This document shows, piece by piece, positions 13,177-48,727 of a stretch of DNA of 64,000 nucleotides. The stretch comes from Halorubrum trapanicum (GTDB lineage Archaea > Halobacteriota > Halobacteria > Halobacteriales > Haloferacaceae). The notes under the pieces are model-generated. The model did no database searches, was not told where the DNA came from, and was given only the letters and a program-made list of their open reading frames with translations. The number at the start of each line of letters is the position of its first letter. Position 1 is the stretch's first letter. Both the position numbers and the translations under genes were made by a program. The stretch lies in contig NZ_JAGGKE010000005.1 in NCBI RefSeq assembly GCF_017873555.1, forward strand, positions 124,001-188,000, read 5' to 3'.

Positions 13177-13250
13177 TACGTCGTTGCTGGCGCGGAGAGT
13201 CGGTTTAAGGACTCGATCGCTCGTTTATAAGTGGCTACTCGCACGGCGGC

Positions 13251-13274
13251 CACCTCCAAAGCCCCGGCCGCTCG
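13251..13274 (+). repeat. Partial 5' copy of the structured element (half-copy)
   Basis: CACCTCCAAAGCCCCGGCCG plus CTCG duplicates the 5' end of the full element that begins 49 nt further on. A closely similar half-copy lies in the same position before copy 3 (48236-48261, two mismatches over 19 nt). A TTTATAAG box (13224-13231) sits about 25 nt upstream. Confidence 0.7.
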
Positions 13275-13299
13275 GCGATACGTGGCTGCTACCGCGGAG

Positions 13300-13553
13300 A
13301 ACACCTCCAAAGCCCCAGCCGGGAGGGCTCGCGCGCCTTGTTGCGCGCCTCGCTCGTTCGCTCCGCTCACTCGCTGCGGTGCTTACTGCGGCGTGCTTCG
13401 CCCTCCCGGCTGCCCCTTTGAGTCCCACCCGACCGCACCGCACAGCACCTCACACCTCCCCAGCCTCGCGGCTCCCTCCGCTTCGCTCCGGTCGCCGCGT
13501 CCCTCGCGCGTGCGACTCGCGCCCTACGGGCACTCGTCGGCACGCGCCACCGC
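13300..13553 (+). ncRNA. Structured repeat element, copy 1 (candidate ncRNA)
   Basis: A non-coding 254-nt element shared with 23677-23944 and 48293-48557. Visible structure: CAAAG (13308-13312) pairs with CTTTG (13416-13420) around a C-rich internal loop. Stem A, 11 bp: 13318-13328 with 13400-13410. Stem B, 6 bp: 13467-13472 with 13494-13499, around the conserved loop CTCCGCTTCGCTCC. Stem C: GTGC-GAC (13510-13516) with GTC-G-GCAC (13536-13543), capped by GCCC-TAC-GGGC. TGCGGTGC (13375-13382), inside the stem A loop, complements GCACCGCA (13435-13442) outside it, making a pseudoknot. Flanking TTTATAA at 13224 and 13555 could be promoter boxes or target duplications. Transcription is inferred. 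Confidence 0.6.
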
Positions 13554-13621
13554 ATTTATAAATAGACTCGCTGCTGGCGGTTCGTCAGGTTCTTGAGTCG
13601 GTTTCGCTTACCTCAGTCTGC

Positions 13622-13706
13622 GCGCGGGTTGCCGAGCCAGGCCAAAGGCGTAGCGCTTAGGACGCTATCCCGTAGGGGTCCGCCGGTTCGAATCCGGTCC
13701 CGCGCA
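13622..13706 (+). tRNA. tRNA-Leu (anticodon UAG)
   Basis: An 85-nt cloverleaf: acceptor GCGCGGG pairs with CCCGCGC, discriminator A at 13706. Anticodon stem TAGCG/CGCTA closes loop CTTAGGA with anticodon TAG (13658-13660), reading CUA. A long variable arm, as in class II tRNAs, precedes the T arm CCGGTTCGAATCCGG. CCA is not encoded. Confidence 0.95.
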
Positions 13707-13845
13707 CTGAACGAAGGAGCGTAGCGACTGAGTGAGAGAGCAGGAGCGGATTCGAACCTTAGAACTCACGAGGACAGCCACAGGTACGTACCGCTCAATA
13801 GCGCACATACCAGTAGCTATCAGCGCGGCGCGCGGTGACCGAACC

Positions 13846-23660: not shown

Positions 23661-23676
23661 GGCCCGGACGGAGACG

Positions 23677-23944
23677 AACACCCCAAAGCCCCAGACGTGA
23701 GGACTCGCGCGCCTTGTTGCGCGCCGCGCTCAGTCGCTCGCGTTGCTCGCTCCCTCGCTGCGGTGCTTACTACGGCGTGCTTCGTCCTCACGCCTGCCCC
23801 TTTGAGTCCCGCCCAGCACGGCACCGCAGCCTCGTTCCTCCCCAGCCTCGTCGATGGTCCTCCGCTTCGCTCCGGACCATCGACTCCCTCGCACGCGCTC
23901 CTCGCGGCCGTTTTAAACGGCCGCTCGGAGGCGCGCGCCACCGC
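23677..23944 (+). ncRNA. Structured repeat element, copy 2 (candidate ncRNA)
   Basis: 268 nt, same scaffold and orientation as copies 1 and 3. CAAAG (23684-23688) pairs with CTTTG (23800-23804). Stem A CGTGAGGAC (23696-23704) pairs with GTCCTCACG (23784-23792). Stem B is 11 bp, 23850-23860 with 23874-23884. Stem C GCGC-TCC pairs with GGA-G-GCGC, capped by a GGCCGTTT/AAACGGCC hairpin. TGCGGTGC and GCACCGCA are both present. Variable stems differ in sequence from the other copies but remain complementary. A TCTAAAAATAGG stretch (23639-23650) precedes it. Six-frame ORFs here are arginine-rich and not credible. Confidence 0.6.
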
Positions 23945-48235: not shown

Positions 48236-48261
48236 AACACCACCAAAGCCCAAGCCGCTCG
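48236..48261 (+). repeat. Partial 5' copy of the structured element before copy 3
   Basis: AACACCACCAAAGCCCAAGC plus CGCTCG repeats the 5' end of the full element located 57 nt downstream, and matches the half-copy before copy 1. It is followed at once by a TTATAAAT box (48263-48270), which lies 27 nt before the AACACC of the full copy. Confidence 0.7.
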
Positions 48262-48292
48262 CTTATAAATGTCTGATAGTAGATCGACGGCT

Positions 48293-48557
48293 AACACCGC
48301 CAAAGCCCCAGTCGCGAGGCGGACGCACGCTCGCTGCGCTCCTCGCTCAGTCGCTCACTTCGTTCGCTCCCTCGTTGCGGTGCTTACATCGCCTGCGTCC
48401 GCCTCGCGACCGCCCCTTTGAGTCCCACCCGACCACGACCGCACCGCAGCCTCACACCTCCCCAGCCTCGTCAGTCGCCTCCGCTTCGCTCCGCCGACTG
48501 ACTCCCTCGCGCGTGCTGCTCGCGACCTACCGGCCGCTCGCAGGCACGCGCCACCGC
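48293..48557 (+). ncRNA. Structured repeat element, copy 3 (candidate ncRNA)
   Basis: 265 nt. CAAAG (48301-48305) pairs with CTTTG (48416-48420). Stem A is a perfect 17-bp helix, 48311-48327 with 48394-48410. Stem B GTCAGTCG (48470-48477) pairs with CGACTGAC (48495-48502) around CTCCGCTTCGCTCC. Stem C GTGC-TGC (48513-48519) pairs with GCA-G-GCAC (48540-48547), retaining the bulged G of the other copies. Pseudoknot arms TGCGGTGC (48376-48383) and GCACCGCA (48441-48448). TTATAA boxes on both sides. No coding potential. Confidence 0.62.
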
Positions 48558-48727
48558 CTATATTTATAAGTAATTCTCGTCGCCGTTCACGGTTGGTTAA
48601 ATATCGTATCGCTGCGACGAGGGTGGTGAACGGGACCTCGGCGGTGTCGATTACTCGGCGTTCGCCGAAGCCAGACGCCCGTGCCGGATCCTGCGGAACT
48701 TTGTCGCTGGCGCGGTCAGTCCGCGGT

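Follow-up and report, generated by a model that had tools for sequence, protein, structure and literature searches.

A dispersed element of haloarchaeal genomes with a covarying, strand-specific G.A-ladder hairpin

The element in the window and across Halorubrum

The window, i.e. the whole stretch of 64,000 nt analysed here, belongs to a genome that orthologue searches placed in Halorubrum, near H. sodomense, H. coriense and H. ezzemoulense. It contains three elements in the same orientation, for which an earlier note on this DNA had listed a series of common blocks; all three were found in their reported positions, with every block in place (Table 1). In the window, CCAAAGCCC is found 5 times, whereas 0.13 occurrences would be expected by chance. 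The earlier opinion that this is not a known family agrees with the Rfam comparison, which returned no match at the gathering threshold for the three window copies and none at E<=1 for seven related loci, and on the basis of which SRP RNA, RNase P and a riboswitch were rejected. A separate G.A-ladder hairpin (ACGAAGGAGCGTAGCGACTGAGT, 13711-13733, + strand) lies at the end and just downstream of tRNA-Leu and gives a weak covariance model match (13685-13758, E 0.0018); a related observation is that, in many haloarchaea, the motif GWGAGCGNAGCGA seems to outnumber its reversed control.

Table 1. Parts of the three copies of the element and neighbouring features, in window coordinates (E-values approximate)
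Feature	Position	Strand	Remarks
TTATAA, TATA-like box left of copy 1	13225..13230	.	precedes the extra 5' unit
Extra partial 5' unit left of copy 1	13247..13270	+	CACCTCCAAAGCCCC...
Copy 1, full element	13300..13553	-	minus-strand order: stem C, stem B, purine-rich linker, A-hairpin
Copy 1, covariance model match	13299-13429	-	111.9 bits, E 2.4e-21
Copy 1, A-hairpin	13308..13420	-	helix 1 CAAAG/CTTTG, 3x3 G.G loop, variable stem A, G.A ladder, triloop
Copy 1, stem B hairpin	13469..13499	-	
Copy 1, stem C hairpin	13504..13550	-	
TTATAA, TATA-like box right of copy 1	13556..13561	.	
Copy 2, full element	23677..23944	-	
Copy 2, covariance model match	23676-23813	-	87.2 bits, E 3.2e-16
Copy 2, A-hairpin	23684..23804	-	
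Copy 2, stem B hairpin	23851..23884	-	
Copy 2, stem C hairpin	23889..23941	-	
Extra partial 5' unit left of copy 3	48236..48258	+	
TATA-like box left of copy 3	48263..48268	.	30 bp before AACACC, the family's commonest position
Copy 3, full element	48293..48557	-	
Copy 3, covariance model match	48292-48429	-	133.4 bits, E 7.9e-26
Copy 3, A-hairpin	48301..48420	-	
Copy 3, stem B hairpin	48471..48502	-	
Copy 3, stem C hairpin	48507..48554	-	
TATA-like box right of copy 3	48564..48569	.	

The number three turned out to be a sampling effect, as the genome holds about 100 copies: the core CTTTGAGTCCCRCCC has about 91 exact occurrences in its 3.08 Mb, in other copies the core is mutated, and a total of 90 were extracted for analysis. 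All copies examined are intergenic. Among the 80 with both flanking genes called (approximately, by a simple codon model), 35 lie in convergent, 39 in codirectional and 6 in divergent spacers, and the codirectional spacers of this genome hold the two orientations in balance (19 vs 20 copies), which makes a one-way role as UTR or terminator less likely and rules out a one-strand 3'UTR role in Halorubrum.

The exact core string was found in 43 of 46 Halorubrum genomes, with 0 to 145 copies per genome, and almost nowhere outside the genus. Full-copy identity within genome G000 or G153 never exceeds 92% (1,638 near-full-length pairs), which indicates that the Halorubrum copies are old, yet they are still paired. 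Occupation of orthologous sites is patchy. Many Halorubrum species have a counterpart of copy 2, oriented alike, upstream of the GTPase gene, while H. persicum has a short spacer and no element there. The site of copy 3 holds an element in 6 of 30 species loci, the site of copy 1 in somewhat under half. TTATAA boxes flank many Halorubrum copies at a preferred spacing, on the left in 108 of 163 cases and on the right in 72 of 134. To the left of the element, loci L018, L023, L051 and L326 carry tandem near-identical units of ~57 bp, each with a TATA-like box or its remnant and up to five of them in L326; that these 57-bp units are independently mobile was rejected, as eight seemingly solo matches proved to be full elements, most of them with a slightly changed core.

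Covariation and the strand that folds

The A-hairpin, the core module of ~130 nt, consists of a short helix, a 3x3 G.G loop and a long variable stem, followed by a conserved internal loop in which CGACGYAAGCACYGCA stands opposite GAGCGCAGCGAG, and finally by 2-bp Watson-Crick steps that alternate with tandem G.A pairs up to a closing GNA triloop. The complementarity described earlier for stem A is real, but its end point was misplaced: the supposed loop is part of one hairpin of ~94 nt, in which covarying pairs extend to the triloop. The first 10 nt of the stem A arms are 97.6% paired (n=195 copies), and 84% paired if arms are swapped between copies. For 47 copies of equal length, our own R-scape-like test (not R-scape itself), whose null re-places substitutions on a FastTree tree, identified 8 pairs with E<0.02, and the best-scoring pairs fall mostly in a single register leading from stem A through the "loop" to the triloop. 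In the 47 ungapped copies, 99.4% of the pair cells of a 36-pair structure are standard, as compared with only 26-46% if the partners are slid out of register, and 24 of the 36 pairs have changed on both sides (12.6 in shuffles). Distant homologues are 93.4% paired and show 364 double-change cells against 111 in shuffles, in an alignment (A3) that was fitted to the model and is hence biased towards its structure. Covariation beyond phylogeny, by which structured noncoding RNAs are recognised, is present in the element, and selection on its secondary structure is strongly supported, with covariation in the 47 copies and in distant homologues that is stronger than had been claimed. Stem A is absent from L089, L293 and L295, so the constraint does not act on every copy.

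The triplets of stem C covary as well (TCC/GGA, TGC/GCA, GAC/GTC, GGT/ACC), albeit less cleanly than the three window copies had led the earlier note to believe, with TCC standing opposite GCA 18 times. Its statement that compensatory change had occurred repeatedly also needs to be narrowed: double changes do exceed shuffles, but a part of them reflects the replacement of whole hairpins. Comparison of L322 with L326 at the orthologous site of copy 3 revealed a clean case, in which the flanks of stem B are identical at 55/55 and 201/202 positions and stem B itself is a wholly different hairpin; a part of the "covariation" between copies is therefore not stepwise compensation. An inverted stem A interior was found in 5 of 82 copies here and in one copy of another genome. 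Within the same interior, Halorubrum copies show a correlation resembling direct repeats, with GGTCC on one side accompanied by GGTCC on the other and GCGCTTC by CCAGTGCTT.

About 20% of the copies in this genome contain, at fixed places, nested double-hairpin inserts made of two perfect palindromes with triloops, e.g. AGCGAGGGACCGAAGGTCCCTCTGGCAGCCGGCGCGTAGCGCCGGCGAC (carriers: L013, L014, L015, L034-L037, L039, L045, L048, L061, L064, L066, L069, L075, L076, L079). In L042, L053, L064, L075, L082, L084 and L290, stem B is interrupted by G/C homopolymer junk or a contig end, which suggests that sequencing or assembly failed at the hairpin.

The fold belongs to the minus strand and not, as first read, to the + strand, because of conserved mismatches and an excess of wobble pairs. 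Taken as the minus strand, the sequence has G.A/A.G at the tandem positions that separate the covarying 2-bp steps in 46-47 of 47 copies; 36 tips are GNA and 11 ANC, and an invariant G.G and the 3x3 G.G loop appear on the same strand. Tandem G.A pairs occur in stem B in 84/166 cases on the minus vs 0/166 on the plus strand, and in stem C in 70/131 vs 1/131. The ratio of G.U to A.C on the folded strand is 46:12 in the first set, where the binomial p of 8e-6 overstates independence since some mismatches are shared alleles, and 42:6 in other genera. Repair of one arm from the other would remove the G.A mismatches, and their persistence means that the complementarity is not due to simple arm correction; homogenisation of the arms as its sole source is ruled out by the invariance of these mismatches.

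Relatives in other genera and the link to transposition

Searches with the A-hairpin covariance model gave matches in 145 of 194 Halobacteria genomes, from 54 of 65 genera, and in none of the remaining 49 (best E outside Halorubrum 7e-20, with all E-values of the model being rough owing to a short calibration). A genus-specific family is thus true of the exact core string only and is overturned by the model, and the earlier advice to look in related genomes for further copies with compensatory changes has led to hundreds of them. The 39 matches in 30 loci that were retrieved contain the same blocks (GGYGGGAMTGAAAGGGGC, CGACGYAAGCACYGCA, GAGCGCAGCGAG and GGGGCTTTC), and helix 1 covaries across genera (CAAAG/CTTTG, GAAAG/CTTTC, GGAAG/CTTCC). 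A set of 86 hairpins from other genera includes 71 distinct arms; 68 of the 84 tips scored are GNA, and the G.A ladder is on the folded strand in 65 of the 86 and on the complement in 1. Named carriers of plasmid-borne copies include Halorussus vallis, Halobaculum halophilum and Haloterrigena turkmenica. Viral carriage was rejected, as phage records gave no match to the element and the 31 viral contigs that carry the 15-mer gave none to the covariance model.

Solo hairpins of other genera lean weakly towards one orientation (26 vs 15). In the loci L366-L395 and L429-L488, a codirectional gene located 3' of the folded hairpin often starts about 80-105 nt from the hairpin end, and the stop of a convergent gene is often about 37-60 nt away. 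Close inverted pairs of A-hairpins are frequent in other genera (L366, L372, L378, L384, L383, L390, L393).

Analysis of the element boundaries in two non-Halorubrum genomes, G131 and G030, revealed that the hairpin is enclosed by inverted repeats (GGTNGTGTTYAG...) with a distance of about 215 bp between them; non-Halorubrum units measure about 205-219 bp between their ends, which leaves no room for a transposase gene. The target duplication of the IS6 family is 8 bp. Both ends resemble terminal inverted repeats (TIRs) in 26 copies, with direct repeats of 8/8 in 5 and 7/8 in 2 of them (expected 0 and 0.14), and ends of this kind also bound IS240-domain (IS6-type) transposons in G030 and G138. 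These non-Halorubrum copies are short, lack a transposase and have shared TIRs and target duplications, and the hairpin in two non-Halorubrum genera is shown to be the body of a MITE. Some pairs of hairpins in G131 reach 97.7% identity, which implies recent spread in that genome; the search for the IS240 domain in G131 gave no hits, although MITEs are present.

The copies in Halorubrum, including those in the window, have neither TIRs nor target duplications: no IS6-type TIRs were found, TIR scores equal those of shuffled sequence, direct repeats are not in excess at the TATA boundaries, and G000 and G153 contain no IS240-domain transposase. A match to an IS family, which the earlier note regarded as evidence against a new RNA, was therefore found in part, as IS6-type ends in two other genera, but not at the Halorubrum copies. 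A REP/BIME origin with a RAYT was ruled out, since the Y1 transposase is dispensable: Y1_Tnp gave no hits in several high-copy genomes, including G009 and G193. Likewise, RVT_1 was found in 0 of 49 Halorubrum genomes, and in a genus without reverse transcriptase a retroelement, a retron and SINE retroposition are ruled out.

Possible function and comparison with known systems

The element is probably an old, non-coding, MITE-derived dispersed sequence, the minus strand of which is kept folded for a single-stranded function. The A-hairpin module would have been spread by IS6-type transposases acting in trans, which for Halorubrum is argued by homology only; short-tract gene conversion, perhaps after nucleases had cut extruded hairpins, could have swapped hairpins between copies, and the fold would be preserved because the minus strand acts single-stranded. 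Judging from the sequences, the acting molecule has about an even chance of being an RNA transcribed from the element, slightly ahead of a ssDNA hairpin, to which we would give somewhat less than an even chance; the GNA triloops, a hallmark of very stable DNA mini-hairpins, favour ssDNA over RNA. Of the earlier proposal of a new structured RNA family, the structure and the lack of an Rfam match have been retained, the three-copy gene and the + strand have been abandoned, and RNA is a candidate only. We tentatively raise a broader interpretation, which we regard as somewhat doubtful: a haloarchaea-wide, high-copy ncRNA (or ssDNA) family of alternating Watson-Crick and tandem G.A pairs, carried by MITEs and maintained in working form in over 50 genera, for the host or for the element, could be the archaeal counterpart of a structured SINE-like repeat, with the fold as the functional unit.

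It is unlikely, though worth weighing, that the copies form a host-beneficial ncRNA family, each being a small RNA gene with its own promoter and a minus-strand transcript that acts in trans or binds a protein that recognises sheared G.A pairs, much as L7Ae does with kink-turns, and that the mobile ends seen in some genera are secondary. The strand-specific fold with covariation, the G.U excess on the folded strand, the flanking TTATAA boxes at preferred spacing on both sides and the old, diverged copies that still keep the fold would all agree with such genes; however, copy numbers by core string range from 0 to 145 within Halorubrum, 49 of the 194 genomes have no model match, the left TATA would drive the unfolded strand, and the loops are GNA triloops rather than typical RNA tetraloops. 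We find it less probable still that these are purely selfish or inert MITE/REP-like repeats with a functionless fold, the complementarity of which arises from arm-to-arm gene conversion or template switching. The MITE structure in other genera fits this, the inverted interiors and hairpin exchange are signs of DNA-level recombination, and 6 divergent vs 35 convergent spacers are expected from purifying selection alone, but arm-to-arm correction would convert to Watson-Crick the G.A and G.G mismatches that 46-47 of 47 copies have retained, on a single strand, and Halorubrum copies, old as they are, remain 99.4% paired in the aligned class. A REP/BIME-like element marking transcription-unit boundaries (mRNA 3' stabiliser, terminator or insulator) would explain why the examined copies are always intergenic and over-represented between convergent genes, but it is very improbable, as no one-strand UTR role fits the equal codirectional orientations, the solo hairpins of other genera lean only weakly, and much of the placement is explained by promoter avoidance.

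Within the preferred reading of a MITE-derived element with a selected single-stranded fold, transposition can be separated from selection on single-stranded structure, with mobile forms elsewhere and old resident copies in Halorubrum. Most haloarchaeal genera carry the element, some with dozens of copies per genome, but it is missing from Rfam; its strand-specific G.A-ladder fold is unusual and directly testable. Covariation among paralogous repeats may come partly from whole-hairpin exchange, which calls for caution in covariation tests. A search of the open-access literature with the sequence blocks found no description of the element, and the prokaryotic match (PMC5217627) is a CRISPR repeat.

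The element is reminiscent of haloarchaeal MITEs, e.g. the MITEs and SMRs of Haloquadratum walsbyi (PMC3119063), in being short, non-coding, transposase-free and multicopy, and the tested non-Halorubrum copies share with them TIRs and target duplications; it differs in the class-wide, covarying and strand-specific fold of its body, and the Halorubrum copies lack recognisable TIRs and duplications and possess the extra hairpins B and C. With the IS6 family (IS240-type DDE transposase), the MITE forms have in common the GGTNGTGTTYAG-type ends and 8-bp duplications, but the element has no transposase gene, and no such hairpin was seen in the autonomous copies that were inspected. REP/BIME sequences are similar in high copy number, intergenic placement, palindromes and a mosaic of hairpin modules, whereas the element is much longer, folds on one strand with a G.A ladder and does not need a Y1 (RAYT-like) transposase. 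The double-hairpin elements of organelles (PMC5910586, PMC4478555) look similar to the paired-hairpin inserts in about 20% of this genome's copies; this is a resemblance only, as the inserts are in an archaeal chromosome, at fixed places in a larger structured element. Finally, the mini-hairpin DNA d(GCGAAGC), which is very stable and has a GNA triloop as its hallmark (PMC4686876), shows the same two G-C pairs and GNA loop with a non-canonical G.A pair, but whereas it is known from synthetic oligonucleotides, here the motif forms the conserved tip of a long genomic hairpin.
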